This document shows, in pieces, positions 3,503 to 18,082 of a DNA stretch of 23,215 nucleotides (its first letter is position 1; every line of letters starts with the position of its first letter). The notes under the pieces are model-generated. The model searched no databases and was not told the origin of the DNA. It worked only from the letters and a program-made list of their open reading frames with translations. The translations under genes and the position numbers were made by a program. The DNA comes from an uncultured Rhodospirillales bacterium (lineage in GTDB: Bacteria; Pseudomonadota; Alphaproteobacteria; Acetobacterales; Acetobacteraceae). Where the stretch lies: the NCBI GenBank assembly GCA_903844785.1, contig CAIMVB010000449.1, positions 1-23,215 on the forward strand, written 5' to 3'.

Positions 3503-3631
3503 ACTGTCCGTCGTCAAATCGTTTGAGACTGATTTGCGGCTTGGCTAACGGAGTATCTGGCCCATCTGCGGTTAAGGTTATGCTGCGTTTTGGTGATGCA
3601 TTAAGCGGTGGTGCTGGATAGTCCTGCGCTT
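3503..3631 (-). repeat. Repeat family copy 1 (minus orientation)
   Basis: The full-length copy of a repeat found three times in this window. Read on the minus strand it runs from AAGCGCAGGACTATCCAGCA to GATTTGACGACGGACAGT. It matches copy 3 along its whole length and copy 2 over about 105 bases, at roughly 85-90 percent by eye. Its translation in one frame (…ASPKR.ITLTADGPDTPL…SLKRFDDGQ) resembles that of the other two copies. Flanking sequences differ, so the unit is dispersed. No transposase is attached; the copies could be miniature elements or fragments of a larger one. Confidence 0.8.
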
Positions 3632-3731
3632 GATGTATCACCAACACGCGGCCTAACCTTAACCGCAGATGGGCCAGATACGCCGTTACACAGCACGCCA
3701 ATCAGTCTCAAATCATTTGACGACGGACAGT
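3623..3731 (+). repeat. Repeat family copy 2 (plus orientation)
   Basis: This copy faces copy 1 head to head, so 3503-3731 forms an imperfect palindrome of about 229 bp with matching outer ends (ACTGTCCGTCGTCAAAT and its complement). Copy 2 lacks the first 20 or so bases of the unit, which are shared with copy 1 at the centre. It ends in TCAAATCATTTGACGACGGA like copy 3 and is a direct repeat of that copy across the operon. Confidence 0.8.
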
Positions 3732-3875
3732 GGCTCACGCCATGTGCCGCAGCACGAGACGCCAACGCGCCGACGCGGCAGATAGCCAAAATTCCGCACC
3801 CTGCGGTTTACCGAAACAACTTGGGCCACAGCCGATATGGGAAGCTTTCGGCTAGCAGGTTCGAGTAATCCGTCC
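3732..3875. other. Short spacer before the operon control region
   Basis: No gene is supported here. Frames that cross it on both strands run into the repeat or into the thiolase-like gene and look like shadows. The sequence does not resemble the repeat copies. Confidence 0.4.
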
Positions 3876-3897
3876 TTAGCGTTGACAGTCACGCTAA
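3876..3897. promoter_or_regulatory. Perfect inverted repeat over the -35 box (candidate operator)
   Basis: TTAGCGT (3876-3882) and ACGCTAA (3891-3897) are exact complements separated by 8 bases. The repeat spans a consensus -35 hexamer at 3882-3887. Spacing and position suit a dimeric regulator that would block or recruit RNA polymerase. It is unlike the LacI-type palindrome downstream, so a different protein may bind it. Confidence 0.5.
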
Positions 3898-3909
3898 TTG
3901 TCCCATAGC
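3882..3909 (+). promoter_or_regulatory. Candidate sigma-70-type promoter of the metabolic operon
   Basis: A perfect TTGACA (3882-3887) is followed after 16 bases by CATAGC (3904-3909), a weak 3-of-6 match to the -10 consensus. Transcription would then begin at about 3916, right at the LacI-type palindrome. The -35 box is strong and the -10 poor, a pattern seen in controlled promoters. Confidence 0.45.
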
Positions 3910-3915
3910 CTCCTT

Positions 3916-3927
3916 GAAAGCGCTTTC
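3916..3927. promoter_or_regulatory. LacI-family operator palindrome
   Basis: GAAAGCGCTTTC is a perfect 12-bp palindrome with a central CpG, the hallmark of LacI/GalR-family operators, where a hinge leucine inserts at the central step. It lies just downstream of the candidate -10 box, an ideal place for repression. The same operon encodes a LacI-family protein at 11091-12182, so autoregulation is the natural inference. I found no second perfect copy in the window. Confidence 0.65.
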
Positions 3928-3974
3928 TTTTTGGCGCAAGCTCAAGCGACAGTGCACAAAGCACACGCCTGCTG

Positions 3975-3981
3975 AAGGAGG
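3975..3981 (+). promoter_or_regulatory. Strong Shine-Dalgarno serving an out-of-frame ATG
   Basis: AAGGAGG lies 8 bases before ATG 3990, ideal spacing. That ATG is not in the frame of the thiolase-like gene but opens a 23-codon leader frame. Neither in-frame start of the thiolase-like gene has a comparable site. Confidence 0.6.
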
Positions 3982-3989
3982 AAACAGGA

Positions 3990-4061
3990 ATGGGCGCACA
4001 GCCCCTAACCCTGCGCGGGGCCCTGCGGTCCGGCGCATGCGCGCGGAATTGCGGCTCGTGA
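3990..4061 (+). CDS. Possible 23-residue leader peptide
   Basis: Starting at ATG 3990 behind AAGGAGG, this frame encodes 23 residues (MGAQPLTLRGALRSGA…) and stops at TGA 4059-4061. The stop overlaps GTG 4058 as GTGA, and that GTG is in frame with the thiolase-like protein. The layout fits a translated leader that couples translation into the first enzyme gene. It could also be the true N-terminus of the thiolase-like protein, cut off by a single-base indel or sequencing error between 3990 and 4058. I do not recognise the peptide, and nothing suggests amino-acid attenuation codons. Confidence 0.4.
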   Translation: MGAQPLTLRGALRSGACARNCGS

Positions 4062-5188
4062 ACGCGCTGCACCGCCTCAAAGACCGCATCGCCATCGTTG
4101 GCGTCGGCAACACTGCCTACGGTAACTTCCCCGATATTGACGACTACGGCCTCGGCGCCCGCGCCTTCCGCAGCGCGATTGAGGATTGTGGCCTCGACAA
4201 GAATAAGATCGACGGCCTGCTCACCTGCCGCGTGCCATATTATGCGCGCATGGGTGAGATTCTTGGGCTCAATCCGCGCTGGACAATCCAACTGCCGCCG
4301 CACGGACGCATGTCCGGCATGGCAATCATTGAGGCTGCGGCGGCGCTAGATGCCGGGCTTTGCGATTATGCGGCCCTGATCTACGCGAATATCGGCCGCT
4401 CCCGCCGGGTGAATTACGGTGGCGACGAAAGCCCGGGCGTGTGGGACCCGTGGGGTTTCACCTCCCCAGGTGCTGCACATGCGCTGATGTTCCAGCGGCA
4501 CCGCGCGCTCTATGGCACAACGACGCGCCAATTGGCCGAGGTTTCTGTGGCGTTTCGCCATCACGCCTGCCTCAACCCTTCTGCCGTGATGAAGCAGCCC
4601 ATCACCATTGATGACCATGAAGCCGCCCGCTTCATCACCGAACCACTCCGCCTGCTCGATTACTGCCTGATCAATGACGGCGCCGTCTGCATCATCATGA
4701 CCACGAAAGAACGCGCGCGGGATCTCAAGAAGCGCCCTGTGATGATCTCCGGTATCGGCGCGCGGGAAGCCTATAGCACGGCCTCCATCTCCAACTTTGA
4801 TCTTAATTTCTGGTACGATGAGATGCGGGACGTCGCCGACCAAGCATATGGCATGGCGGGCGTCGGGCCTTCCGATGTTGATGCGCTGATGTGCTACGAC
4901 AATTTCAGCCCAACGGTATTGTTCAGCCTTGAAGGCCTTGGCTTCTGCAAGCAAGGCGAGGCGGGCTCCTTTGTCGAGGGTGGTGCGCTGAAGCTCGGTG
5001 GCCGACTGCCCACCAACACCGATGGCGGGCACCTATCGAATTCCTACATGCAGGGCTGGGCGCTCAACATCGAGGCGGTGCGCCAAATCCGCGGTGAATG
5101 CGGCGCGCGCCAGGTACAGGATGCACAGGTGGTACAGTATTGCGGCGCCACGCCGTGCTCACGCTCCATCATCTATACGCCGGGTTGA
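4037..5188 (+). CDS. Thiolase-fold protein (Ltp2/SCP2-thiolase type) without catalytic Cys
   Basis: A thiolase-superfamily subunit of about 383 residues, with N-terminal IAIVGVGNTAYG and the C-terminal GG-H-rich loop (NTDGGHLSNSYMQGW). Where degradative thiolases carry the nucleophile (C-A/G-S-G) this protein reads GRMSGMA, so the cysteine is absent. That is typical of the branch that pairs with a DUF35 protein, as in the bacterial Ltp2-ChsH2 steroid side-chain retro-aldolase, and a DUF35 gene follows 11 bases downstream. A cytosolic aldol or retro-aldol step on an acyl-CoA is the best inference. The start is uncertain: ATG 4037 and GTG 4058 both suit the family length but lack good ribosome-binding sites, while a strong one serves the leader frame. 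Frames further upstream (to TTG 3914) would overlap the operator and are unlikely. Confidence 0.85.
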   Translation: MRAELRLVNALHRLKDRIAIVGVGNTAYGNFPDIDDYGLGARAFRSAIEDCGLDKNKIDGLLTCRVPYYARMGEILGLNPRWTIQLPPHGRMSGMAIIEAAAALDAGLCDYAALIYANIGRSRRVNYGGDESPGVWDPWGFTSPGAAHALMFQRHRALYGTTTRQLAEVSVAFRHHACLNPSAVMKQPITIDDHEAARFITEPLRLLDYCLINDGAVCIIMTTKERARDLKKRPVMISGIGAREAYSTASISNFDLNFWYDEMRDVADQAYGMAGVGPSDVDALMCYDNFSPTVLFSLEGLGFCKQGEAGSFVEGGALKLGGRLPTNTDGGHLSNSYMQGWALNIEAVRQIRGECGARQVQDAQVVQYCGATPCSRSIIYTPG

Positions 5189-5199
5189 GGAAGGATTCC

Positions 5200-5616
5200 A
5201 TGCAGCCAGCAACCCCCGCCAAGCCCCGTCCGCGGATTGACACTGTCAGCCGCGGCTTCTGGGACAATGCCCGCGACGGCCGCCTTTCTGTGCAGCGCTG
5301 CGACGACTGCTCGGACATTCATTTCCCCGGATCGCCGGTCTGCCCGAAATGCCTTTCAGAGAAGCAATCCTGGCTCCCGGTCTCCGGCCGCGGGACCGTG
5401 CTCTCCTGGGTGCGTTTCCACCGCGCCTATTGGGACGGTTTTCGCGCGGACCTTCCCTATCTGGTCGCTCTCGTGGGCCTTGAGGAGGGGCCGATGTTGA
5501 TGAGCAGCATTATTGATGCCCCTGCCGAAGGGCCAGAGATCGGCGCATCCGTCACGGCTGTCTTCGAGCAAGTGGATGACCAGCTGACGCTGCCGAAGTT
5601 CCGGATCGGCGCATGA
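5200..5616 (+). CDS. DUF35 Zn-ribbon/OB-fold protein, partner of the thiolase-fold subunit
   Basis: A 138-residue protein. It begins with the family's amphipathic region (FWDNARDGRL), then a rubredoxin-like zinc ribbon with Cys34, Cys37, Cys48 and Cys51 (CDDC…CPKC), then an OB-fold that includes GRGTVLSWVRFHRAY. Members of this family (DUF35_N plus DUF35) bind acyl-CoA and form complexes with thiolase-like or HMG-CoA synthase partners; ChsH2 in steroid degradation is an example. The gene lies 11 bases after the thiolase-like gene. ATG 5200 is preceded by GAGGAAGGA. In-frame codons back to 5098 lie within the previous gene and are unlikely to be used. Cytosolic. Confidence 0.88.
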   Translation: MQPATPAKPRPRIDTVSRGFWDNARDGRLSVQRCDDCSDIHFPGSPVCPKCLSEKQSWLPVSGRGTVLSWVRFHRAYWDGFRADLPYLVALVGLEEGPMLMSSIIDAPAEGPEIGASVTAVFEQVDDQLTLPKFRIGA

Positions 5617-5622
5617 ACAAAA

Positions 5623-5640
5623 CCTCGGCCGGGACCGAGG
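5623..5640 (+). other. Intercistronic hairpin
   Basis: CCTCGG (5623-5628) and CCGAGG (5635-5640) pair across a 6-base loop between the DUF35 gene and the binding-protein gene. There is no T-run, so it is not a standard terminator. A stem here could stabilise the downstream mRNA, a known way to raise the level of a binding protein over its neighbours. That role is inference. Confidence 0.4.
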
Positions 5641-5663
5641 CTTTCCACGGAAGGAAAAACAAG

Positions 5664-7256
5664 ATGATGCGTATCTTGAGGGTAGCAACCTTGTCGCTGG
5701 CCATGATGGGACCGTTGGTCGCGTCAGCTCAGACGCAGCCGCCGGCGGCAACCCGCGCGAATACCTTGCGGGTGGTCGTGCATGCCAACCTGCAGATCCT
5801 CGACCCGGTTTGGACCACGGCCTTCATCTCCGGCCGTCACGGCTACCTGATTTACGATACGCTCTATGCGATGAACTCGCGTTTCGAACCCCTGCCGCAA
5901 ATGGCGCAGGGGCACGAGATTCTGGAAGGCGGCCTGCTCTATCGCATCCGGCTGCGCGAAGGCCTGCGTTTCCACGACGGCAGCGCTGTCCGGGCGCAGG
6001 ATGTTGTCGCATCGCTACGTCGTTGGATGAGCCGCGACGTCATGGGCCAGCAGATGGCCGCCGTGACCGACACAATTACTGCGGTGAATGACCAGACCTT
6101 CGAGATCCGCCTCAAAGAACGCTGGGGCATGGTGCTCGACGCGCTGGCGAAGCCGTCCAACCCGCCCTTCATTATGCCGGAACGCATCGCGCAGACGCCC
6201 GCCACCACGCAAGTGACCGAAACGATCGGTTCGGGCCCCTTTATCTTCGTGCGCGACGAATGGCGCCCGGGTAACCGCGTCGTCTATCGGCGCAACCCAG
6301 ACTATGCGCCACGCTCCGAACCGGCGGACTACCTCTCCGGTGGCAAGCGCGCCCTCGTTGAACGTGTCGAGTGGCTCTATATGCCGGATCACAATACGGC
6401 GCTCGCCGCGCTGAACGCGGGCGAGATTGACTATTTTGAGGCGCCGCCGCTGGACTTCATCAACGTCCTCGCGCGCAACCGCAATATCCGTATCGTCAAT
6501 ATTGACGCAATCGGAACGTCGGGCCTCATCCGTCCAAACCACCTCTACCCGCCCTTCAACGACCCCCGTGCACGCCAGGCACTCGCGCATCTCGTACGCC
6601 AGGAAGACTATATGCGCGTGGTGGTGGGTAACCCGCAGCTTTACAGGCCTTTCTGCGGCTCCTTCTTCATGTGTGGTTCTGCGAACGGGACCGAGGTCGG
6701 CAGCGAGCCCTTCCGGGAGCCCAACGTAGAACGTGCCCGCCAGCTGCTGCGCGAGGCGGGCTATAATGGCGAGCCTATCGTCGTGCTGCAGCCGACCGAT
6801 CGCGCCCAGTACAATGCGGCGACCATGGTACTGATCCAGGCGCTGCGCCGCGCGGGTGTCAACGTTGATGTGCAGTCGATGGACTGGAGCACGCTGCTGT
6901 CGCGCCGCGCCAACCGCAATGACCCATACCAGGGCGGCTACCATCTGTTCGTGACGACGCACGGGGGGCCCACCACGGCGCTGCCGCCTTCTAACACTTG
7001 GTTCAATACGCGTTGTGAGCGTGCCAATCCGGGCTGGGCCTGCGATGCGGAACTGGACCGGATGGTCGGCGAATGGGCGCGGGAAGCGAGCCCAGAGGCC
7101 CGCGCCCCGATCCTGGAGCGCATCCATCGCCGCGCCTGGGAAGTGATTCCGTATGTTCCTTATGGTCAGTACACACAGCCGGTGGCCGTTCGTTCGAATG
7201 TGCACGGCGTTCTGGAGGCCGGGATCCCGGTCTACTGGAACATCGAAAAGCGATGA
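5664..7256 (+). CDS. ABC transporter substrate-binding protein, family 5 (DppA/OppA type)
   Basis: About 530 residues, usual for the SBP_bac_5 family. The N-terminus MMRILRVATLSLAMMGPLVA is a classic Sec signal peptide, with probable cleavage after ASA at residues 20-22, so the protein is periplasmic. Family landmarks include LRVVVHANLQILDPVWTT at the mature N-terminus, GLRFHDGSAVRAQDVVASL, and the late domain with FNDPRARQAL. ATG 5664 (or 5667) follows GGAAGG, and a start at 5613 would put 17 unlikely residues before the signal peptide. Such proteins bind peptides, but also opines, glycosides, nickel or plant-derived acids, so the substrate cannot be read from sequence. The flanking CoA-dependent enzymes favour a carboxylate-bearing carbon source over nutritional peptides. 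Confidence 0.92.
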   Translation: MMRILRVATLSLAMMGPLVASAQTQPPAATRANTLRVVVHANLQILDPVWTTAFISGRHGYLIYDTLYAMNSRFEPLPQMAQGHEILEGGLLYRIRLREGLRFHDGSAVRAQDVVASLRRWMSRDVMGQQMAAVTDTITAVNDQTFEIRLKERWGMVLDALAKPSNPPFIMPERIAQTPATTQVTETIGSGPFIFVRDEWRPGNRVVYRRNPDYAPRSEPADYLSGGKRALVERVEWLYMPDHNTALAALNAGEIDYFEAPPLDFINVLARNRNIRIVNIDAIGTSGLIRPNHLYPPFNDPRARQALAHLVRQEDYMRVVVGNPQLYRPFCGSFFMCGSANGTEVGSEPFREPNVERARQLLREAGYNGEPIVVLQPTDRAQYNAATMVLIQALRRAGVNVDVQSMDWSTLLSRRANRNDPYQGGYHLFVTTHGGPTTALPPSNTWFNTRCERANPGWACDAELDRMVGEWAREASPEARAPILERIHRRAWEVIPYVPYGQYTQPVAVRSNVHGVLEAGIPVYWNIEKR

Positions 7257-7273
7257 CCTGACGGAAGCCGGTC

Positions 7274-8215
7274 ATGTGGTACTACGTCACCAAGCGGATC
7301 CTCGCGACCCTGCCCGTCATGGGCGTGGTCGCGGTCATTGTATTCCTGCTGCTCAGATTGAGCCCGGGCGACCCGGCGGCGATCATCGCCGGGGATGACG
7401 CAACAAGCGAAGACATTGCGAAAATCCGGGAACATCTCGGCCTGGACCGTCCTTTGCTGACGCAATTCGTGCGGTGGTTGGGGCAGCTCGCGACCGGTGA
7501 CTTCGGCAATTCCATCTATCTTGAACGGCCCGTGCTCGGCCTGATCATGGAGAGGGTGGAGCCGACCTTGGCCCTTTCCGTGACGACCATCATCTTCGCT
7601 GTCGTGCTGGCAGTGCCCATCGGCGTCCTGGCCGCTTGGCGCGCCGGCACCTGGATCGACCAGACCATCATGGCGCTGTCGGTCCTGGCCTTCTCCGTGC
7701 CGGTTTTCTTGATCGGCTATGGGCTGGTGATCGGCTTCTCCCTGACACTGGAATTGCTACCGGTGCAGGGCTTCGTGAGTCTCGCCGAGGACCCGGGCGC
7801 GTTCTTCCGCCACCTCGTGCTGCCGACCGTGGCGCTTGGCCTGGTCTATACCGCGCTCATTGCCCGCATCACGCGCGCCACCATGCTTGAGACCCTCAAC
7901 GAGGACTTCATCCGCACCGCCCGCGCCAAGGGCCTGGGCGAGCCGAGGGTGCTGATCCTGCACGCTCTGAAGAACGCCTCGGTGCCGATTGTCACCACCA
8001 TCGGCACCGGGCTTGCGCTGCTGATCGGCGGCGTCGTCGTCACGGAAAGCGTCTTCGCCGTGCCCGGCATCGGCCGCCTCACCATTGATGCCGTGATGCA
8101 GCGGGATTATCCGGTGATCCAGGGTGTGATCCTGGTCGTCGCCGGCGTTTACGTTCTTGTGAACCTTCTGATTGACCTGACCTATTCCTTGCTTGATCCG
8201 AGGATCCGCTACTGA
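7274..8215 (+). CDS. ABC transporter permease, DppB/OppB type
   Basis: A 313-residue inner-membrane permease. The first membrane helix is at about residues 9-30, followed by the periplasmic segment characteristic of DppB-type subunits (HLGLDRPLLTQFVRWLGQLATGDFG). Further helices and the cytoplasmic EAA-type loop (ARAKGLGEPRVLILHALKNA) that docks on the ATPases come next. It ends in the family-typical YSLLDPRIRY. The start lies 17 bases after the binding-protein stop, and the stop overlaps the next start by one base (TGATG). It forms the translocation pore with the DppC-type subunit. Confidence 0.93.
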   Translation: MWYYVTKRILATLPVMGVVAVIVFLLLRLSPGDPAAIIAGDDATSEDIAKIREHLGLDRPLLTQFVRWLGQLATGDFGNSIYLERPVLGLIMERVEPTLALSVTTIIFAVVLAVPIGVLAAWRAGTWIDQTIMALSVLAFSVPVFLIGYGLVIGFSLTLELLPVQGFVSLAEDPGAFFRHLVLPTVALGLVYTALIARITRATMLETLNEDFIRTARAKGLGEPRVLILHALKNASVPIVTTIGTGLALLIGGVVVTESVFAVPGIGRLTIDAVMQRDYPVIQGVILVVAGVYVLVNLLIDLTYSLLDPRIRY

Positions 8216-9102
8216 TGGCCAGCACCGACATCACTGCCGCAGCTGCCATCGTCCCGCGGTCGCGCAGCGCGACGGGACTGATGCGTCGTGCTGCCCGGCG
8301 CCCGCTACCTGTATTGGGCAGCGCCCTCCTGATTGTCCTGATACTCTCTGCGCTGCTGGCGCCGTGGCTCACGCCATATGACCCGTTCGAGATGAATGTG
8401 GTGGACCGGCTGCTGCCTCCGAATGAGACCTATTGGTTCGGCACGGACGCCTATGGCCGCGACATCTTCACCCGTACGCTCTACGGGGGGCGCGTATCGC
8501 TCGTGATCGGCGCGGCGGTCGCCGTTGCCTCCACCGTGGTCGGTCTCCTGATCGGCGTGATAGCGGGTTACTTCCGCACGGCCGACGCCATACTGATGCG
8601 GGTCATGGACGGTCTGATGGCCATTCCCGGCATTCTGCTCGCCATCGCGCTCATGTCACTCACGCGCGCCAGTGTCTGGATCGTCATCATGGCCATCACC
8701 ATTCCGGAGGTGCCGCGCGTCGCGCGCCTGGTACGCTCGGTGGTGCTCTCAGTGCGCGAGCAGGTCTATATCCAGGCAGCGAGTGCCGTGGGTACGCGGT
8801 TTCCGCGGCTCATGCTGCGCCACATACTGCCCAACACCTTTGCGCCGCTAATCGTACAAGCGACATACATCGCCGCCTCCGCCGTGCTGGTCGAGAGCTA
8901 CCTCAGCTTCCTGGGCGTCGGAACCCCGCCGGAGATTCCGTCCTGGGGCAACATCATTGCAGAAGGTCGGCTCTATGTGCAGATCGCCTTCTGGAACATC
9001 TTGTTCCCAAGCGTCTTCCTTGCGGTGATGGTGCTGTCCATCAACATTCTTGGCGACGGGCTACGCGACATGCTCGACCCCCGCCTGGCGCGGAGGATCT
9101 GA
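8215..9102 (+). CDS. ABC transporter permease, DppC/OppC type
   Basis: A 295-residue permease with the OppC-type N-terminal membrane helix (about 35-55). Next comes the family signature region LTPYDPFEMNVVDRLLPP…YWFGTDAYGRDIFTR (residues about 58-85). The EAA-type loop AASAVGTRFPRLMLRHILPN contacts the ATPases, and the C-terminus is GDGLRDMLDPRL. The start overlaps the DppB-type stop by one base, and its own stop overlaps the DppD-type start by one base, so these genes are almost certainly co-translated. Confidence 0.93.
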   Translation: MASTDITAAAAIVPRSRSATGLMRRAARRPLPVLGSALLIVLILSALLAPWLTPYDPFEMNVVDRLLPPNETYWFGTDAYGRDIFTRTLYGGRVSLVIGAAVAVASTVVGLLIGVIAGYFRTADAILMRVMDGLMAIPGILLAIALMSLTRASVWIVIMAITIPEVPRVARLVRSVVLSVREQVYIQAASAVGTRFPRLMLRHILPNTFAPLIVQATYIAASAVLVESYLSFLGVGTPPEIPSWGNIIAEGRLYVQIAFWNILFPSVFLAVMVLSINILGDGLRDMLDPRLARRI

Positions 9103-10094
9103 TGGCCTCCGATCCCGTCCTGCGCGTCGAGGGGCTGCGCACTGAATTCGCGACCGGCGACGGTCCACCGGCGGTCGCAGTCAACGACCTCTCCTTCGAG
9201 GTAAACCGCGGCGAGACGCTCTGCATCGTGGGCGAGTCCGGGTGCGGCAAAAGCCTGACGGCGCTGTCCGTCCTGCGCCTACTGCCGCGGCCTTATGGGC
9301 GGATCGGTGCTGGTCGCGTGTTGCTTGAAGGCAGGGACCTTGTGCAGGTGTCTGACCCCGAAATCCGCGAAGTCCGGGGCCGCGCTGTCTCGATGATTTT
9401 CCAGGAACCGATGACAAGCCTGAATCCAGTGCTGAACATCGGCCGCCAGATCGCGGAGACGGTGATGGTGCATGAGGGCCTGCCCTGGCAAGCCTGCACC
9501 GACCGCGCACTCGAAATGCTGCGCCAGGTGCGGATCCCTGAACCTGAACGTCGCCTGCACGAGTATCCGCATCAATTATCCGGCGGCATGCGCCAGCGCG
9601 TCATGATCGCCATGGCGCTGGCCTGCCGCCCACGCGTGCTGCTTGCCGACGAACCGACCACGGCGCTTGATGTCACTATCCAGGCGCAGATCCTCGATCT
9701 GATCCGCGATCTGCAGCGTGAGACAGGTACAGCCGTCCTGCTCATCACTCATGACCTGGGCGTAGTCGCGGAAATGGCCGACCGCGTGCTGGTGATGTAC
9801 GCGGGAAGCAAGGTGGAGGAAGGCACCGCAGCGGAAATCTTCGACGCACCCACCCACCCCTATACGCGCGGCCTGATGGGTGCGATGCCGCATCTAGGGG
9901 GTGCCCATGGCGGGCGACTGGCCGAAATTCCTGGCGTGGTGCCGGCACTGAATGCACGGCCTAAGGGTTGTAGTTTCGCTCCCCGCTGTAGCCTCGCGAC
10001 ATCGCGCTGCCACGTTGAAGCGCCGCCGCTGCGGAGTTTTGCAGGTAGCCACACCGTCGCCTGCTGGGAAGTTGGTCAAGGAGCTGCAGCATGA
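9102..10094 (+). CDS. ABC transporter ATPase, DppD/OppD type
   Basis: A 330-residue ATPase with Walker A GESGCGKS (44-51), Q-loop Gln101 in MIFQEPM, signature LSGGMRQR (159-166), Walker B VLLADEPT (179-186) and switch His217. The C-terminal oligopeptide-transporter extension carries GCSFAPRC…C motifs of the kind that bind an Fe-S cluster in some DppD proteins. The start is ATG 9102 in TGATG with the previous stop; the frame stays open upstream to 8433, but that part overlaps the permease gene and is not protein-like. It would pair with the DppF-type ATPase on the cytoplasmic face. Confidence 0.94.
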
Positions 10095-11074
10095 ACGCGC
10101 AGATCCCGGTTCTGGAGGTCCGCGACCTTGTCAAGCATTACAGCGTGGGTGGCGGCTTCTTTGGCCGCGGCCGCAAGCAGCTTCGCGCGGTGGATGGTGT
10201 TTCTTTCAGTATCGGGCAGGGGGAAACGCTTGGCCTGGTGGGGGAGAGCGGCTGCGGGAAGTCCACCGTCGGCAAGGCGGTACTGCGCCTGGTGGAACCG
10301 ACCTCTGGCCAAGTCACCTTGGAGGGTGAGGACATTACGAGTCTCGGCAGCGCCGCCCTGCTTGACCGGCGCAAGCGGATGCAGGTCATCTTCCAGGATC
10401 CCTATTCCTCGTTGAACCCCCGCATGACGGCGGGTGAAATCGTGCAAGAACCGCTGATCAACTTCGGCATCGGCTCGCGCGCTGAACAACGAGATCGCGT
10501 CGCCTTGCTTTTCGCCCGCGTGGGGTTGCGTCCGGACCAACGCGCCAATTATCCGCATGAATTCTCCGGCGGGCAGCGGCAAAGGCTGGGCATCGCGCGG
10601 GCGCTCGCGCTCGGCCCCAGCGTGATCATCGGGGATGAGCCGGTCTCTGCGCTCGATGTCTCGGTGCAGGCACAGGTCATCAACCTGATGATGGACCTGC
10701 AGCAGGAATTCGGGTTGAGCTACCTTTTCGTCGCGCATGATCTTGGCGTGGTCGAACACATCAGCCACCGCGTCGCAGTGATGTATCTTGGCAAGATCGT
10801 TGAGATCGCCGCGCGGGCGGCCTTGTTCGAAACGCCAAGGCACCCTTACACCGAAGCGCTACTGGCCGCCGTGCCGGTCTCCCACCCGCGCGCACGGCGA
10901 GCGCGCACCGTTCTGACGGGGGACGTGCCAAGCCCGATCAACCCACCCCCAGGGTGCCGCTTCCATACGCGATGCCCGATCGCGGTCGCGCGCTGCCGGC
11001 AGGAGGAACCGCCGCTGGTGGTGGACGCGTCAGGCCACGGCGTCGCCTGTCACCTTCGCGCCACAACCCTGTAG
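10091..11074 (+). CDS. ABC transporter ATPase, DppF/OppF type
   Basis: A 327-residue ATPase. Walker A is GESGCGKST (51-59), the Q-loop is [10 protein letters not shown] (101-110), the signature is FSGGQRQR (158-165), and Walker B is [12 protein letters not shown] (178-189). The C-terminal oligo_HPY region carries the [14 protein letters not shown] cysteine pattern. The start overlaps the DppD-type stop in ATGA, indicating coupling. With the preceding four genes it makes a complete five-part importer, and no subunit is missing. Confidence 0.94.
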
Positions 11075-11090
11075 GACCCTTGCCGAGCAC

Positions 11091-12182
11091 ATGACGAATA
11101 AGGCAAGCGCGCCTCCGCTGGGGGGCAAGAGACGCAGGAAAATCGGCGCCCCGAAGGTGCGGCTGGAAGAAGTGGCGCAGGAGGCAGGCGTCTCTGCCGC
11201 CACCGCGTCGCGCGTGCTGAACAACCCCTCGCTGGTCACGAAGGACCTGCGGGACAAGGTGCTAAAGGCGACGTCAAAGCTGGGTTACGTTGCGGATGGT
11301 GCTGCAAGGGCGCTCGCGTCACGCCGATCGCGCGTTTTGGGCGCGGTGGTGCCCAATCTTTCGAACACGATCTTTTCCGACATGATCGAGGGCTTTCAGC
11401 AGCGGCTAGAACCGCAGGGCTACACGATGCTGCTGGCCACCTTCAACTATGATGAGGCGGCGGAATGCCGCAGCGTCCGCACCATGATCGAACGCGGCGT
11501 GGATGGGCTGGTGCTGGTCGGCGTGACCCATAGCAAGGAACTGGAACTGCTGCTGAAGAGCTCCGGCATTCCCTTCGTCCAGACCTGGGCGCCGGCAAGG
11601 GCCAGCGGGCACCCAACCATTGGCTATGACAACGCGACCGCCGCGCGGCTGCTGGTGGATCATCTCGTCGGGCTAGGACATCGCGACATCGGGGTTGTGG
11701 CAGGGCTTACCCAGCACAATGACCGCGTGCGGGCGCGCATCGCTGGCCTGCGCGCGGCGATGCGCCGCCACCGCATTCCCCTACCGGCAGACCGCATCGT
11801 CCAGACCGAGTATCGCATCGCGAAGGTGCGCGAGGCTTTCCGTGTAGTGCAGCGAAAGGGCGAGTTACCGACAGCGCTGATCGCCAACAACGACATCGTA
11901 GCGCTCGGCCTGCTGCTGGAAGCGCAGGCGCAGGGTATCCGTGTGCCGGCGCAGCTTTCGATCGTGGGCGTCGGCGATCTTGAGATCGTGACCCACATGA
12001 AGCCGCCGCTGACGACCGTGCGTTCGCCGAAGCACACGATCGGCGCCATGGCAGCCGATTACCTGCTTGCCCGCATCAGCGGGCACGACTTCGCCATACC
12101 CGAAGAACTCCCACTTGAACTCGTGGTGCGGGGGTCCACCGCCCCGCCACGCATGACCCGCCGCAAGGACACTTCAGCATGA
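11091..12182 (+). CDS. LacI-family transcriptional regulator
   Basis: A 363-residue regulator with a basic N-terminal tail. The LacI helix-turn-helix follows (about residues 22-45, VRLEEVAQEAGVSAATASRV), then the hinge with ARALASRRS. The remainder is a periplasmic-binding-protein-like effector domain beginning RVLGAVVPNLSN. LacI members sense a small molecule from the pathway they control, so the ligand is probably the imported compound or an intermediate. It lies inside the operon, 16 bases after the ATPase gene and overlapping the CoA-transferase start as ATGA. The perfect GAAAGCGCTTTC palindrome at the operon promoter is the obvious target, implying autorepression. The ribosome-binding site is weak, which would keep levels low. 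Confidence 0.92.
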   Translation: MTNKASAPPLGGKRRRKIGAPKVRLEEVAQEAGVSAATASRVLNNPSLVTKDLRDKVLKATSKLGYVADGAARALASRRSRVLGAVVPNLSNTIFSDMIEGFQQRLEPQGYTMLLATFNYDEAAECRSVRTMIERGVDGLVLVGVTHSKELELLLKSSGIPFVQTWAPARASGHPTIGYDNATAARLLVDHLVGLGHRDIGVVAGLTQHNDRVRARIAGLRAAMRRHRIPLPADRIVQTEYRIAKVREAFRVVQRKGELPTALIANNDIVALGLLLEAQAQGIRVPAQLSIVGVGDLEIVTHMKPPLTTVRSPKHTIGAMAADYLLARISGHDFAIPEELPLELVVRGSTAPPRMTRRKDTSA

Positions 12183-14791
12183 CGACTGCGCCGAGCATCC
12201 TGCCCATCACGCGCGACAAGGCCGGGCACCTGCCGGGCATGCTGGAGGGGCTGCGTGTTGTGGAACTGGCTGACGAGACAGCCGAATATGTTGGCATGAC
12301 GCTCGCCGGCCTCGGCGCTGAGGTCATCAAGGTTGAACCCCCGCAGGGCGCTTCCACGCGCGCCATCGGACCCTTCCTGGATGATGAACCCGGCCCCGAG
12401 CGTTCGCTGCATTTCTGGGGCTATAATCGGGGCAAGCGGTCCGTCGTGCTCGACCTCGACACGTTGGAAGGCCAGGAGAAATTCCGACAGCTTCTTGCCT
12501 CCGCCGATATTTACCTCGATGCGAGCGAGGGTAAGGCGGCATCTGCGCTGGGTGTTGCCGCGCGTGACATCGCTGCGCAGTTCGCCGGCCTGATCGCCGC
12601 GCGCATGTCGCCCTTCGGCGACGAAGGGCCCTGGAAGGATCACAAGGCATCAGACCTGATCCACCTAGCGCTGGGCGGGATCATGATGAATTGCGGCTAC
12701 GACCCGGATCCGTCGAAGCATTACGACCTGCCACCGATCGCGCCGCAGCTTTGGCATGCCTACCACATCGCCGGCGACCAGATGGTTGTGGGCATCCTTG
12801 CCGCGTTGATCCATCGCCTGCACACGGGCGAAGGCCAGGACCTGTGCGTGGCGATCCACGAAGCAGTCTCGAAGAATACCGAACTTGATGTGATGTCCTG
12901 GGTAATGCGGCGCGCCCCGCTATTCCGCCAGACCTGCCGGCACGCAATCGAAAAGCCTACGCATGTGCCGAGCATCGGCCATACCAAGGATGGGCGCTGG
13001 TACATCGCCGCCGGTGTGTCGGTACGCGACCAGACAAGCCTTGTGCCCTTCCTATCCGGCTACAGCATGGCGGCGGACCTGCAGGCACCGGGCGGTGGTG
13101 CGGACACCAAGGCGCGCAACGTTCCTGGCTCGGGTGCGGACGACGAGACGAAGTCTCATGTGCTTGAGATCGTGCAGCGCTTCATCCGGTCGTTCCGCTA
13201 CGAAACAATGCCATGGCGGGAAGCACAGGCGGCAGGGCTGCTTTGGTCGCCGCTGCGCAAGCCGCACGAAAACGTACTCGATGCGCATTGGCAGGCGCGC
13301 GGCACCTTTGCCGAGGTGGAGCATCCAGAGCATGGGCGCGCCTACCATTATCCGGTCAGCCGATGGCTCTCCTCCGAAACAGTGTGGAAATCGGGTCGCC
13401 GCGCCCCGCTGTTGGGTGAGGATACAGCAGCCGTGCTTGGCGCGCTGGCGCCGCGAAAGCCGCTGACGCAGCCGGCAAGGCCGCGCAGTGATGCACCGCT
13501 GCGGCTTTCCCCGCACGAAAAGCCGTTTCCCTTGCAGGGCGTGCGGATCTTCGATTTCTCCTGGTTCCTTGCCTCGGCGGGCGGTACACGCTTCGCTGCT
13601 GCGCTGGGCGCGGATGTGATCAAGGTCGAATGGAAGGACAATCCCGACACGCGCCTTGCGGCCATGTCGCCCGTTGGCGGGCGTGCAGCGCGTGAGGCTG
13701 CGACCGCGCCGCTCAAGGGTGTCACTGATTCCGACATGGGCGGGCAGTTCAACAACAAGAATTCAGGCAAGAGCGGCATTTCGCTCAATATCCGCCATCC
13801 CAAGGGCATGGAGATTGCGCGCCGCCTGATTGCCATGTCGGATGTGGTGGCGGAGGGCTTCTCCCCCGGTGTACTGCAGCGGCTCGGCCTTGGCTATGAT
13901 GTGCTGCGCGCATTGCGATCCGACATCATCTATGTGCAGCAATCCGGCATGGGCGGCATCGGCACCTATGGGCGTTTCCGTACCATCGGCCCTGTCGCCG
14001 CAGCCTTCGCCGGCACTTCGGAGATGTCGGGGCTGCCCGAACCAGCCATGCCTGCGGGCTGGGGTTATTCCTTCCTTGACTGGATCGGCGCCTATAGCTT
14101 TGCGACAGCGATCATCGGTGCGCTTTATCATCGCGACCGCACCGGCCAGGGCCAGTGGATTGACAGTTCGCAGTGCGAATCAGGCATTTTCCTGAAGCCG
14201 GTGCCGATCCTTGATTGGTCCGCGAATGGGCGGAGCTGGAGCCGCATCGGCAACCGTTCCCCCTATAAGCCGGCTGCGCCGCATGGCGCCTACCGTTGCG
14301 CCGGCCAGGATCGCTGGATTGCCATCGCCGCCTTCGACGACGCCCAATGGCAGGCACTTATTCGCTTGGCGGATCGCCCAGCCTGGCGGGCTGACCCGCG
14401 CTTTGCGACGCTGGAGAGCCGCCTGCTGCATCAGGACGCGCTGGATGCTGCCGTGACAGAATGGACGCAGGACCAGAACGCTTATGCCTGCATGGCGGCG
14501 CTGCAGGCGGCCGGCGTGCCGGCGGGCGTCTGCCAGACGGCAGAGGACCGGTGCGACAATGACCCGCAACTCCCCACACTATCCTGGCTCACGGAAGTAA
14601 CCGGCACCAAGATTGGCCGCTGGCCGGTAACCGAAATTCCAACGAAGCTTTCTGCCACACCGCCCTATAGCGGCGGCATCATCGACCGCGGCGCGCCTGG
14701 CTATGGCGAGGATAATGCCCGCATCCTGGGTGAGCTGCTCGGTTATTCTTCCGCGCAAGTCGCGGCGCTGGCCGAAGAAGGGGTGATTTGA
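12179..14791 (+). CDS. Double-domain family III CoA-transferase (CaiB/BaiF)
   Basis: At 870 residues this is twice the usual CaiB/BaiF length and contains two copies of the fold. The first runs from about residue 20 (LEGLRVVELADETAEYVGM) to about 420, the second from about 450 (LQGVRIFDFSWFLASAGG) to the end. Each has its own Rossmann start, …GAEVIKVE or …GADVIKVE, and its own GQ…(I/E) active-site helix (GQDLCVAIHEAVS near 220, GQWIDSSQCES near 660). Family III enzymes move CoA between carboxylic acids through an active-site carboxylate; formyl-CoA transferase uses Asp where both halves here appear to read Glu. Single-domain members dimerise as interlocked rings, so the fusion may make that dimer within one chain. 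It probably activates the imported substrate. The start overlaps the regulator stop as ATGA. Confidence 0.9.
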   Translation: MTTAPSILPITRDKAGHLPGMLEGLRVVELADETAEYVGMTLAGLGAEVIKVEPPQGASTRAIGPFLDDEPGPERSLHFWGYNRGKRSVVLDLDTLEGQEKFRQLLASADIYLDASEGKAASALGVAARDIAAQFAGLIAARMSPFGDEGPWKDHKASDLIHLALGGIMMNCGYDPDPSKHYDLPPIAPQLWHAYHIAGDQMVVGILAALIHRLHTGEGQDLCVAIHEAVSKNTELDVMSWVMRRAPLFRQTCRHAIEKPTHVPSIGHTKDGRWYIAAGVSVRDQTSLVPFLSGYSMAADLQAPGGGADTKARNVPGSGADDETKSHVLEIVQRFIRSFRYETMPWREAQAAGLLWSPLRKPHENVLDAHWQARGTFAEVEHPEHGRAYHYPVSRWLSSETVWKSGRRAPLLGEDTAAVLGALAPRKPLTQPARPRSDAPLRLSPHEKPFPLQGVRIFDFSWFLASAGGTRFAAALGADVIKVEWKDNPDTRLAAMSPVGGRAAREAATAPLKGVTDSDMGGQFNNKNSGKSGISLNIRHPKGMEIARRLIAMSDVVAEGFSPGVLQRLGLGYDVLRALRSDIIYVQQSGMGGIGTYGRFRTIGPVAAAFAGTSEMSGLPEPAMPAGWGYSFLDWIGAYSFATAIIGALYHRDRTGQGQWIDSSQCESGIFLKPVPILDWSANGRSWSRIGNRSPYKPAAPHGAYRCAGQDRWIAIAAFDDAQWQALIRLADRPAWRADPRFATLESRLLHQDALDAAVTEWTQDQNAYACMAALQAAGVPAGVCQTAEDRCDNDPQLPTLSWLTEVTGTKIGRWPVTEIPTKLSATPPYSGGIIDRGAPGYGEDNARILGELLGYSSAQVAALAEEGVI

Positions 14792-14795
14792 GGCC

Positions 14796-15581
14796 GTGAT
14801 GCAGGGCCCTGCATGGGAACAGGATATCGTCTTCATCGGCGATATCCATCGTCAGTGGCGGCATGTCGCGCAGGGCCTTGCTAAGGCCAAGCGGCGGCCC
14901 CGCGTGGCGGTACTGCTCGGGGACATGGAGTGCGACCAACCGCTTGATATTGCCGCCGCGCCGCTGCTCGATGCCGGGATCGAGGTGCACTGGATCTGGG
15001 GTAACCATGATTATGATGGCGGGCCCGAAATGTGGACCAACCTGGTTGATGCGGGCCGCAATCCGCGTACCCGACAGGGAGAACTCAATGCGCGCGTCAC
15101 CGACATTGGCGGGCTTCGTATCGCGGGGCTGGGCGGCACCTTTCGTCGGCGCGTTTGGGAACCGCCGGGGGCCCCAAGGTTGCGCTCACGCGACGAGCTG
15201 CCGGCCGACATGGCCAGCCTTGGCCCTGACTGGAATGAGGAGCAACGCCGCTCGATGGCCGATGCGCTCGCCGCAATGGCGATCTGGCCCGAGGATGTTG
15301 AGGCGCTGTCCGCCCTGCGTGCCGACGTGCTGGTGACGCATGAGGCACCATCAAGCCATCCACAGGGTGTTTCGACGCTCGACGAGTTGGCGCGACGGAT
15401 GGACGCGCGCCTCGTCATCCATGGGCACCACCATGTCTGCTACCGCGCTTGTGCTGAAGACGGGCTGCAAGTGCAGGGCGTCGGCGCTGGCTGGGGCGTA
15501 GGGCTTGATGGCCGGCTTTGGTGGCCGGGTGAACCTGATCGCTGGCTGGGCCAAGCGCCCGCCGGCTGGTCGCATCTTTGA
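14796..15581 (+). CDS. Calcineurin-like metallophosphoesterase
   Basis: About 261 residues with the full set of metallophosphoesterase motifs: GDIH (15-18), GDME (42-45), GNHD (69-72), TH (181-182) and HGHHH (209-213). These ligand a two-metal centre that hydrolyses phosphomono- or phosphodiesters. No signal peptide or membrane segment is seen, so it is cytosolic. The start is either GTG 14796 or the adjacent ATG 14799, both only a few bases after the CoA-transferase stop. A phosphatase in a CoA-ester catabolic operon is unexpected; it might recycle a CoA- or nucleotide-type side product, or act on the substrate itself. The substrate cannot be read from the sequence. Confidence 0.87.
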   Translation: MMQGPAWEQDIVFIGDIHRQWRHVAQGLAKAKRRPRVAVLLGDMECDQPLDIAAAPLLDAGIEVHWIWGNHDYDGGPEMWTNLVDAGRNPRTRQGELNARVTDIGGLRIAGLGGTFRRRVWEPPGAPRLRSRDELPADMASLGPDWNEEQRRSMADALAAMAIWPEDVEALSALRADVLVTHEAPSSHPQGVSTLDELARRMDARLVIHGHHHVCYRACAEDGLQVQGVGAGWGVGLDGRLWWPGEPDRWLGQAPAGWSHL

Positions 15582-15592
15582 GGATATGTCCC

Positions 15593-16360
15593 ATGCGAAT
15601 CACCGACCTGGCCGGTAAGGCGGTTCTCATCACCGGTGCGTCCACCGGTATCGGGGCTGCGGTGGCCAAGGGCTTCGCCGCGCAGGGCGCGCGCGTCGCG
15701 GTGCATTACAATTCCAGCGAAGCCCCGGCGTTACAGGTTCTGGAGGAGATCCGCGCCGCCGGCGGTGACGCCATCGCGCTCAGGGCCGATGTCCGTTCCG
15801 TTGATGCTTGCCGAACCCTGGTAGCTGAGGCGCAACAGCGCCTCGGGGCGCTCGATGTGCTGGTGAACAATGCCGGTGGCGTAGTGAAGCGGCACCCGCT
15901 GCATGAGATTGATGACGCGCTCTACGACGATATCGTTAACCTGAATGCACGTTCAGTCTTCGCCTGTTCCCGCGCTGCGGTGCCGATCATGCAGGCGCAG
16001 GGCAGCGGCGCGATCATTTCCACCACATCGGTCGCGGCGCGTACCGGTGGGGGCAGCAAGTCCACGCTCTATGCCGCTTCAAAGGCATTCGTCTCGACCT
16101 TTACACGCGGATTGGCGAAGGAGGTTGCGCGCCACGGCATTCGCGTGAACGCTATTGCCCCCGGTGTGATCGGCAAGCCCGACAAGTCGAAGACGACGCC
16201 GAACCATCAGCTTGAGGCGTCGATCAAGCTCACGCCCATGCGGCGGATCGGTACCGTCGAAGAATGCGTTGGGGCCTATCTTTTCCTGGCATCCCCGGAG
16301 ATGGCCGGGTTCATCACCGGACAGGTGATCGAGGTGAACGGCGGACTTCACATGCCCTGA
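15593..16360 (+). CDS. Short-chain dehydrogenase/reductase (SDR, FabG-like)
   Basis: A 255-residue classical SDR with the cofactor motif TGASTGIG (14-21), NNAG (92-95), a catalytic serine in STTS (143-146), and YAASK with Tyr160 and Lys164. It ends GFITGQVIEVNGGLHMP, typical of 3-oxoacyl reductase or alcohol dehydrogenase relatives. HYNSS after the second strand lacks the acidic residue usual for NAD, which leans towards NADP(H); this is tentative. ATG 15593 follows GAGG at 9 bases; an in-frame TTG at 15578 overlaps the previous stop and is less likely. As last gene of the operon it probably interconverts a hydroxyl and keto group on the acyl-CoA intermediate. Confidence 0.9.
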   Translation: MRITDLAGKAVLITGASTGIGAAVAKGFAAQGARVAVHYNSSEAPALQVLEEIRAAGGDAIALRADVRSVDACRTLVAEAQQRLGALDVLVNNAGGVVKRHPLHEIDDALYDDIVNLNARSVFACSRAAVPIMQAQGSGAIISTTSVAARTGGGSKSTLYAASKAFVSTFTRGLAKEVARHGIRVNAIAPGVIGKPDKSKTTPNHQLEASIKLTPMRRIGTVEECVGAYLFLASPEMAGFITGQVIEVNGGLHMP

Positions 16361-16376
16361 CCGCGGCCAGTCGCGG
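16361..16376 (+). terminator. Short hairpin right after the operon
   Basis: CCGCG (16361-16365) and CGCGG (16372-16376) can pair across 6 bases immediately after the SDR stop. No T-run follows, so this is at best a weak or Rho-assisted end of transcription. Confidence 0.3.
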
Positions 16377-16408
16377 CTCGGCAATGTAAATTTGCAGATT
16401 GTGCGGTG

Positions 16409-16726: not shown

Positions 16727-16894
16727 ATGCCCAACCAGCATGTGGCTGCCCCCCCCAAACCGCCCGGTGAGATTGCTGATGAGAAGGTGAAGAGGAACGC
16801 TCACTTCCTCAACTTGCCCCCTTCAGTAGCAGGCTTAGCGGGAGTCCGTGGTGTACGCGCACCAAGCGCAGGACCATCCAGCACCGCCGCCTGA
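16727..16894 (+). CDS. Small hypothetical ORF running into repeat copy 3
   Basis: A 55-codon frame from ATG 16727, with GGGAGAAGAAGG just upstream as ribosome-binding site. The first 37 or so residues (MPNQHVAAPPKPPGE…) look protein-like. The frame then enters repeat copy 3 and stops at 16892-16894 inside it. The likely history is a gene whose 5' end survives and whose body was replaced by the repeat. I do not recognise the product. Confidence 0.35.
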   Translation: MPNQHVAAPPKPPGEIADEKVKRNAHFLNLPPSVAGLAGVRGVRAPSAGPSSTAA

Positions 16895-16990
16895 TGCATC
16901 ACCAAAACGCGGCATAACCTATCCAGCAGATGCGCCAGATGCTTCGGTACACAGCACGCCAATCGGTCTCAAATCATTTGACGACGGACA
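16860..16990 (+). repeat. Repeat family copy 3 (plus orientation)
   Basis: A full-length copy from CACCAAGCGCAGGACCATCC to TTTGACGACGGACA. It is the same family as the two copies at 3503-3731 and is in direct orientation to copy 2. The match ends exactly where IS5-type transposase sequence begins (16991-16993), so the junction may mark insertion into, or recombination with, that IS. Confidence 0.8.
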
Positions 16991-16992
16991 CC

Positions 16993-17106
16993 TTCGGCCG
17001 CCTGAAGGACTGGCGACGCATCGCAACCCGATACGACCGCTGTGCCCACACCTGCTTCTCGGCCATCTGCATCGCGGCTACCGCCATCTTCTGGTTGGGA
17101 GAATGA
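16993..17106 (+). pseudogene. C-terminal remnant of an IS5-family transposase
   Basis: The frame reads FGRLKDWRRIATRYDRC…FSAICIAATAIFWLGE and then a stop. This is the C-terminal end of IS5-family DDE transposases, just past the catalytic glutamate (…ER-FGRLK…RRIATRYD). Everything upstream, including the two catalytic aspartates and the start, is missing and is replaced by repeat copy 3. It is therefore inactive. Similar elements are frequent in Acetobacteraceae, one reason for the lineage guess. Confidence 0.85.
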
Positions 17107-17284
17107 GTCCTGAACCTAGCGCGGGGGCCAGGTGAGATGGCACGGAGTCGTCATTGGGGTGAGGATTGCCCAGGGATTTGGCGTCAGGTTGAGCGCGCTG
17201 TGGTAAAAGAATCCGATATGGCCAAGACCTGCCAGCCGGTTCTGGTCCCACAGGTGCCGAGGCCGGAGCCGCGGCAGAAGAACC

Positions 17285-18082
17285 TCAAATTAGGCGTGCG
17301 CGTAATTTTGTGACTAGGATTTCTGCCAAGATAACGATGCCAAGGATAGCGAGCAAAATCGTTGCCACGCGATCCCATTGAAAAAAATTGATCGCATCAT
17401 CCAGCACCACGCCAATCCCGCCAGCCCCTACCAGCCCCAGAACCGCGCTTTCGCGGATATTGATATCCCATCGAAATAGCGCCACCCCCCAAAAGGCAGG
17501 CGATATTTGCGGCCACACACCTTTGAGAATGACATGACTGTCCGGCGCGCCGGTAGCGCGCAATGCCTCCTGTGGGCCGGGGGAGATTTCTTCCAGTGCT
17601 TCGGCCAGCAACTTGCCAACAAAACCAATACTACGAAAGGCAATGGCGAAAGTGCCAGCCGCCGCGCCAGGGCCAAAAATCGCCACAAAAATCAATGCCC
17701 AGACAAGAGAATTTACGGAACGGGACGTCACTAGAGCCAATTGCGCCAAAGTATTCAGCCACGCATAGGGGCAGATATTGCGCGCTGCCATCAGCGCAAG
17801 AGGCACGGCGAAGATGAAGGAAAAAAGCGTACCCAGGCTTGCGATATGCAGCGTCTCAACCAGCGCTTCATGCACGGCCGGGTGGTAATGGCCCAAATGA
17901 GGCGGCCACATGCGCGCTAGCAGATCCAGCATTTGTTCCGGCGCATCGGCCAGGAATTCCGGGATGATTTCAATGCCGCGCAGCGCCCAGATAAGGGCGA
18001 GTACAATGATGAAATAAGCGGCCCATCGGCCGATACGCTCGGCCGGCGTAAAGCGCTGCCATTCCCGCATCAACGCATTCAT
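17285..18082 (-). CDS. phnE: Phosphonate-type ABC permease PhnE (second copy)
   Basis: A 265-residue inner-membrane permease. The N-terminal membrane helix is at about residues 20-36, a long periplasmic stretch includes the family's ARMWPP motif, and about five further helices follow. The EAA-type ATPase-docking loop is EALEEISPGPQEALRATGAP, and the C-terminal part has the PhnE-typical ESAVLGLVGAGGIG. The start overlaps the stop of the upstream permease gene as ATGA. The two PhnE-like proteins are clearly different in sequence and would form a heterodimeric pore. It is the last gene of the block on this strand. Confidence 0.9.
   Translation of the reverse strand: MNALMREWQRFTPAERIGRWAAYFIIVLALIWALRGIEIIPEFLADAPEQMLDLLARMWPPHLGHYHPAVHEALVETLHIASLGTLFSFIFAVPLALMAARNICPYAWLNTLAQLALVTSRSVNSLVWALIFVAIFGPGAAAGTFAIAFRSIGFVGKLLAEALEEISPGPQEALRATGAPDSHVILKGVWPQISPAFWGVALFRWDINIRESAVLGLVGAGGIGVVLDDAINFFQWDRVATILLAILGIVILAEILVTKLRARLI

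Follow-up and report, generated by a model that had tools for sequence, protein, structure and literature searches.

On contig CAIMVB010000449.1 of an uncultured Rhodospirillales bacterium (Acetobacteraceae; assembly GCA_903844785.1) we analysed by computation a stretch of 23,215 nucleotides, here called the window, which contains an operon of eleven genes (A to K). The operon is real and its gene order is kept in relatives. It is probably a catabolic operon repressed by a LacI-family regulator, by which a small hydroxylated carboxylate would be imported, loaded with coenzyme A (CoA) and split by retro-aldol cleavage in a complex of the proteins A and B. The operon is a new combination of known parts and not categorically new; it may represent an undescribed route for using a natural compound. 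The original prediction had recognised no pathway, and in the open-licence literature no named pathway or operon with these members was found.

Operon layout and conservation of gene order

The genes all lie on the + strand, span positions 4058-16360 and are joined by junctions of -4 to +17 bases. All families named in the original prediction were located, in tight order.

4058..5188, + strand: A, thiolase-fold protein, candidate Ltp2-like aldolase, 376 amino acids (comparison of domains, fold and residues)
5200..5616, + strand: B, DUF35 zinc-ribbon/OB-fold partner with Cys4 ribbon (domains; start ATG 5200 read from the sequence)
5613..7256, + strand: C, solute-binding protein (SBP) family 5 (domains)
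7274..8215, + strand: D, ATP-binding cassette (ABC) permease, OppB/DppB type (Pfam/NCBIfam)
8215..9102, + strand: E, ABC permease, OppC/DppC type (Pfam/NCBIfam)
9102..10094, + strand: F, ABC ATPase, OppD/DppD type (Pfam/NCBIfam)
10091..11074, + strand: G, ABC ATPase, OppF/DppF type (above the NCBIfam cut-off of PRK11308)
11091..12182, + strand: H, LacI-family regulator (Pfam/NCBIfam)
12179..14791, + strand: I, fused class III CoA-transferase, 870 amino acids, BbsE-like half then BbsF-like half (domains, fold, residues)
14796..15581, + strand: J, metallophosphoesterase, calcineurin-like (Pfam)
15578..16360, + strand: K, short-chain dehydrogenase/reductase (SDR), start TTG 15578 or ATG 15593 (NCBIfam/domains)

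Counted from ATG 5200 the gap between A and B is 11 bases. Comparison with relatives placed the start of gene A at GTG 4058, the TTG 3914 of the mechanical open reading frame being wrong, which leaves space for a regulatory region upstream. Pattern scans inside the operon gave terminator-like sites at 3 places, against 7.5 expected from shuffled sequence, and promoter-like sites also at 3, against 2.4 expected, thus nothing above chance interrupts it. The Rfam scan was empty. As stated earlier for this gene set, no acyl-CoA dehydrogenase or enoyl hydratase was present among the domain assignments of the operon. The genome comprises 3.39 Mb in 517 contigs, with the operon on contig C449.

The complete order A-K was found in 7 of 9 fetched relatives; another holds ten genes without LacI, and one has only the CoA-transferase, aldolase and DUF35 genes, with the aldolase in opposite orientation. 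One scan of a genome collection detected relatives of CoA-transferase I in 231 related stretches, of which the best 80 loci were read. Nine of these 80 show the complete order (L026-L030, L032, L034, L035, L038). Seven of the nine are the same genomes as the fetched relatives with full order, so that the counts overlap, and the two further ones are labelled as other genera, Rhodovarius crocodyli and Plastoroseomonas hellenica (LMG 31523, L038, a cultured strain). The refuting condition named in the original prediction, a gene order kept in no relative, is thereby contradicted. By their draft-genome labels, the closest related loci mostly belong to Roseomonas or other Acetobacteraceae. The annotations met on relatives read merely "CoA transferase", "thiolase family protein" and "OB-fold protein". 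A contig labelled Methylocystis (L031) carries the operon end with a 96% identical CoA-transferase, either a mislabelled bin or a transfer.

Within the 80 loci we counted the aldolase in 51 (identity limit 55%) and DUF35 in 53 (36%). At a limit of 50% the phosphoesterase was present in 30 loci and each of the two permeases in 24; at 45% the binding protein was present in 21 and the two ATPases in 18 and 17. LacI (44%) was counted in 20 and the SDR (60%) in 19. Short contigs depress all these numbers, yet some long loci do lack the aldolase.

The co-occurrence of I and A was followed in two genome samples. A set of 59 genomes comprised the own one, 34 further members of its genus and 24 others of the class; I was present in 10 of them and A in those same 10. 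Sampling 385 genomes of the class gave 3 with the CoA-transferase (limit 1e-200) and 4 with the aldolase (limit 1e-130), 3 being common to both, the own genome included. For each genome these searches scored a limited number of first-look candidates, at most 16 in the set of 59 and at most 5 or 2 in the samples of 385. We concluded that the pairing of CoA-transferase and aldolase is far from chance.

Thiolase-fold protein A and its DUF35 partner B

The thiolase fold ascribed to A in the original prediction was recovered, and the assignment was refined: by its residues and fold, A is most likely a retro-aldolase that acts together with the DUF35 partner B. Gly83 of A aligns with the Cys of the ACASGG active-site motif in thiolase 7yvy and is Gly in 50/50 orthologues. 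For Ltp2 of T. curvata paired catalytic residues, Tyr294 and Tyr344, are described in PMC12329534. Both have a matching tyrosine in A, Tyr280 and Tyr330 (288 and 338 when numbered from 4034), kept in 50/50 orthologues. The motif YDNF, also found in 50/50 orthologues, stands where 7yvy and BbsB both have HDAF, and Tyr330 stands where 7yvy has the His of GHP. Among the fold matches of A, Ltp2 and Sal are two of the best three and BbsB ranks below both. Protein B has zinc ribbon and OB-fold domains above the Pfam cut-offs, and of 61 sequences, paralogues among them, 59 to 61 have Cys at each of the four Cys4 positions.

Because A reads YDNF in place of YDHF it was not filed as Ltp2, merely as working like Ltp2. 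With the NCBIfam lipid-transfer model PRK07855, which we take to cover Ltp2, A scored 259.7 of 469 bits and thus stayed below the cut-off. Two other identities were rejected. An SCP2-type thiolase has the motif HDCF, as given in PMC12329534, in place of which A has YDNF; its nucleophilic Cys is absent as well (Gly83, aligned with 7yvy, which is not an SCP2 thiolase). A Sal-type aldolase would show the Tyr-Cys pair of a YDC motif, and A has Asn at the Cys position.

Could A-B be a true thiolase like BbsAB? K would then oxidise a hydroxyacyl-CoA to a 3-oxoacyl-CoA, which A-B would cleave with free CoA, as in the last step of anaerobic toluene degradation. The CoA-transferase pair, the SDR and the thiolase/DUF35 pair correspond in kind to BbsEF, BbsCD and BbsAB of that pathway, and the BbsA and BbsB models do match, although weakly and below their NCBIfam cut-offs (30.4 of 250 and 97.6 of 750 bits). 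The three replacements in A relative to 7yvy (Gly83, YDNF and Tyr330), invariant among the orthologues, and the rank of BbsB behind Ltp2 and Sal by fold make this alternative unlikely.

The fused CoA-transferase I

The earlier description of I as a double CoA-transferase held and could be specified. Pfam CoA_transf_3 matched above its cut-off (464.6 bits) in two stretches, and the protein appears to join a BbsE-type and a BbsF-type subunit in one chain, with a predicted active Asp in the first half only. Asp159 of the first half is invariant in 23 sequences (the one from the window plus 22 selected among 120 listed homologues) and aligns with an Asp of the BbsE chain, which we take to be the catalytic residue of class III CoA-transferases; the second half has no Asp at that place. 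In L083, L096, L098 and L068 (also L051 and L090) the fused transferase adjoins a further CoA-transferase set, which has an aldolase and a DUF35 gene of its own (about 45% identity). This doubling looks as if two rounds of CoA loading and cleavage were coupled.

LacI-family regulator H and the predicted operator

H contains LacI DNA-binding and periplasmic-binding-like domains, both above the Pfam cut-offs. Three elements were noted upstream of gene A.

3915..3928, no strand assigned: predicted LacI-type operator TGAAAGCGCTTTCT (palindrome and comparison of relatives)
3882..3887, + strand: TTGACA, possible -35 element (same place in the same-genus loci L026-L030 and L032)
3990..4061, + strand: short upstream open reading frame of 23 codons with a strong Shine-Dalgarno sequence and a TGA overlapping the GTG start of A (sequence and relatives)

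The predicted operator contains a perfect 12-base palindrome and lies about 130 bases upstream of the aldolase start. An exact match to its 13-base pattern is found at a single place in the own genome. Of 8 relatives 7 have it too, one of them twice, and the relative without the site is the relative without LacI. Mismatches were scored in 75 of the 80 loci, L031, L034, L038, L068 and L086 being left out for want of upstream DNA that could be scored; L038 carries the site, as seen outside this scoring. With LacI taken as present at a match of at least 44% identity, a site with no more than two mismatches precedes the first core gene in 13 of 17 loci with LacI and in none of the 58 loci without it. 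The four loci scored as misses (L050, L054, L055, L064) have 5 to 6 mismatches before the core. They carry a TctC/TctA importer, and there a site (TGTAAGCGATTACA, TGTAAGCGTTTACA or TGAAAGCGCTTACA) was found before tctC or at its predicted start. The comparison strongly supports a predicted operator served by a dedicated local regulator. Since operator presence tracks the LacI gene, the self-regulation proposed in the original prediction is backed.

A second exact operator-like site in one relative (G014:C51:23130-23142, L159) lies beside what by eye resembles a cobalamin riboswitch. The promoter scan upstream of A gave no complete site. The short upstream open reading frame is of equal length in six same-genus loci, other such frames occur in L038, L039, L041, L042 and L099, and elsewhere it is variable; the ATGA/GTGA overlap is partly dictated by the second amino acid. 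We did not build on this frame because it varies outside the genus and its overlap partly follows from coding.

Importer, neighbouring genes and substrate class

The importer was recognised by the Pfam domains SBP_bac_5, BPD_transp_1 (twice) and ABC_tran with oligo_HPY (twice). Reading the substrate from the binding protein C was given up, the best match 8vdx being an uncharacterised Bordetella protein that gave no ligand. The core of CoA-transferase, aldolase and DUF35 protein was found again in alpha- and beta-proteobacteria, and the importer beside it varies. It is of the Dpp type in the window, consists of TctA and TctC in L050, L054, L064 and, by clustering, L055, and is of the TRAP type in L100 (DctP above its cut-off, DctM at 267.3 of 268.45 bits). 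The Dpp importer is thus not obligatory. Dpp, Tct and TRAP importers carry polar solutes, often carboxylates. Plasmid records gave distant contexts only, none with a known substrate; on the actinobacterial (Mycolicibacterium) plasmid pJCM13574 (L118) a fused CoA-transferase of 53% identity lies beside thiolase-family and OB-fold genes.

Near the core of relatives we found lactonase-like genes (SMP-30, amidohydrolase 2, MBL fold), Ldh_2 and GMC oxidoreductases, an alpha/beta hydrolase in 18 of the 80 loci, and LeuC-, LeuD- and LeuB-like genes in 2 of the 80. The latter lie directly upstream of the aldolase gene in L100 (3911-7208); in L057 (3464-7434) they are followed by an HpaI-type aldolase about 2.5 kb before the CoA-transferase. 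These neighbours are suggestive of hydroxy-acids or lactones, not decisive, and by analogy a CoA-transferase of the BbsEF kind suggests a dicarboxylate. The core occurs with differing importers, so the substrate is probably a hydroxy-carboxylate. From importers, neighbours and transferase kind together we infer that its CoA thioester would carry a beta-hydroxyl, perhaps a tertiary one.

Removal of a steroid or terpenoid side chain, as carried out by Ltp2 and Sal, would be another function for the operon. Among the characterised matches of A the best two are enzymes for steroids, as described in PMC12329534. The distant core on pJCM13574 is surrounded by acyl-CoA dehydrogenase, enoyl-CoA hydratase, cyclase-family and FAD oxidoreductase genes. 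Against this function, the operon of the window has neither acyl-CoA dehydrogenase nor hydratase, importers for polar solutes stand beside the core, and the regulator is of the LacI family; we regard a steroid or terpenoid function as quite improbable (no genome search aimed at steroid ring genes was made).

Phosphoesterase J and dehydrogenase K

J lies above the Pfam cut-off for metallophosphoesterases. Of the 30 loci with J, 27 have it no more than 1.8 kb away from I, and it was present in 9 of the 10 CoA-transferase-bearing genomes in the set of 59. These observations, together with the appearance of AccA in the fold list of C, would be in line with a phosphodiester or phosphorylated acid as substrate (as agrocinopine is for AccA), opened by J before CoA loading; we give this little probability. 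K may act before or after cleavage.

Proposed route

The order of steps in the original prediction, uptake, CoA loading and aldol-type cleavage, remained the best reading by computation, sharpened by the paired tyrosines and the missing Cys. After binding to C the acid would enter the cell through D-E-F-G, and I, the fused transferase, would then transfer CoA to it from a donor such as succinyl-CoA. In the A-B complex Tyr280 would deprotonate the beta-hydroxyl, the retro-aldol reaction would break the C-C bond, and Tyr330 would protonate the resulting enolate, the products being a shortened acyl-CoA plus an aldehyde or ketone. K would oxidise or reduce either the substrate or the released carbonyl. 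H would sit on TGAAAGCGCTTTCT and leave it upon binding of substrate or product.

Several observations weigh against this retro-aldol route. The best match of A, by sequence as well as by fold, is 4u4e, titled a putative thiolase of unknown function, which has His at the position of Tyr330. The YDHF of Ltp2 reads YDNF in A, so the oxyanion His is absent, and A reaches no NCBIfam cut-off (its best score is 279 of 421 bits). In 29 of the 80 loci, including loci with 22 kb of DNA, A was not found at the 55% identity limit. Allowing one mismatch, the operator pattern is met at 12 further places of the own genome, and 3 of the 58 loci without LacI reach a site at three mismatches. J is left without an explained role.

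The synthetic direction, in which A-B would join an acyl-CoA to an aldehyde or ketone while the importer serves another need, is very improbable, even though aldolases are reversible and the thiolase-fold/DUF35 complexes in the fold list of A include the acyltransferase PhlABC.

The retro-aldol route allows a wider, tentative hypothesis, which we hold to be possible and rather doubtful. Ltp2-like aldolases may have a large and so far undescribed range outside steroid breakdown, as part of a widespread module of fused CoA-transferase, aldolase and DUF35 protein. In this module small hydroxy-acids of tertiary or branched structure, 2-alkylmalates or branched sugar acids for instance, would be loaded with CoA and then cleaved by a retro-aldol reaction; in the present operon the module would have its own LacI, and it would be joined to whichever importer fits. 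If the route is correct, bacterial catabolism would gain a CoA-dependent retro-aldol path for a natural acid, and a non-steroid role would be assigned to an enzyme type of which both characterised relatives considered here are steroid enzymes. With relatives of the CoA-transferase in 231 stretches, the core is common. The paired-Tyr test would then allow re-annotation of such "thiolase family protein" genes. The single clear operator and the compact gene set make the substrate findable.

Genomic surroundings of the operon

DNA similarity to seven relatives (alignments above 80 bases; the relatives' flanks are short) amounts to 89 to 93%. It begins at 3872-3910, or at 4023 in one relative at its contig end, and ends at 16360-16406. 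Beyond the operon the available flanks share with the relatives only short ABC-gene matches near 21.2-21.4 kb. One upstream flank is common to four relatives (L026, L027, L029, L032) and has only short matches in the own genome; downstream flanks are common within two pairs. As the similarity is bounded by the operon ends and the flanks are unshared, the operon behaves as a discrete cassette at a different location than in the relatives. The G+C content is 63.8% in the operon, 51.5% in the upstream flank and 59.4% in the downstream one; for 13 further loci of the genome the range is 58 to 63%, thus the upstream flank, not the operon, is the outlier.

Directly upstream of the operon in L026 (463-1464) lies a divergent gene that by eye resembles a TctC-type receptor, with no NCBIfam match; this flank is also that of L027, L029 and L032. 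Shortly upstream of the operon in the window, at 3503-3731, an imperfect inverted repeat of 229 bases (105-base arms, 87%) resembles a miniature inverted-repeat transposable element. Partial copies of it were seen on other contigs and shortly downstream of the operon at 16860-16990. At 16955-17110 a motif read by eye suggests the C-terminal remnant of an IS5-type transposase. On the - strand three further regions were noted: a 675-amino-acid protein with DUF4214 and no other Pfam domain (1363-3390); a four-gene phosphonate/phosphite-type ABC importer with PhnD-like binding protein, ATPase and two permeases, one above the PhnE cut-off (17285-20695); and, at the contig end, an ABC ATPase of ferric or polyamine type, below cut-offs, with a double permease (20774-23190).

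Comparison with known systems

With the steroid aldolase Ltp2-ChsH2(DUF35) (PDB 6ok1) A-B shares the thiolase fold, the DUF35 partner and the paired Tyr. The two differ in YDHF against YDNF, at 33% identity in the fold alignment, and unlike Ltp2, A sits beside a CoA-transferase and an importer, in an operon without hydratase or acyl-CoA dehydrogenase. The bile acid aldolase Sal-Shy(DUF35) (PDB 9myr) has the fold, the DUF35 partner and the Tyr of the YD motif in common with A-B, but, as described in PMC12329534, Sal works with Cys304 and its second Tyr position is taken by Gln, where A has Asn and Tyr. In the uncharacterised thiolase-fold protein 4u4e from Sphaerobacter His replaces Tyr330 of A. 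The benzoylsuccinyl-CoA thiolase BbsAB (PDB 7pxp) differs by HDAF in place of YDNF and by weak model scores; it is, as we take it, likewise a thiolase-fold/DUF35 pair that works with a CoA-transferase pair. The importer resembles Dpp/Opp-type ABC importers in its SBP family 5 protein, two permeases and two ATPases with oligo_HPY end. Benzylsuccinate CoA-transferase BbsEF (PDB 9fn0) provides the best chain for the second half of I and the tied best for the first, and in both systems the Asp is found in the E-like and not in the F-like half; however, BbsEF consists of two separate subunits with different neighbours, whereas I is a single chain of 870 amino acids.
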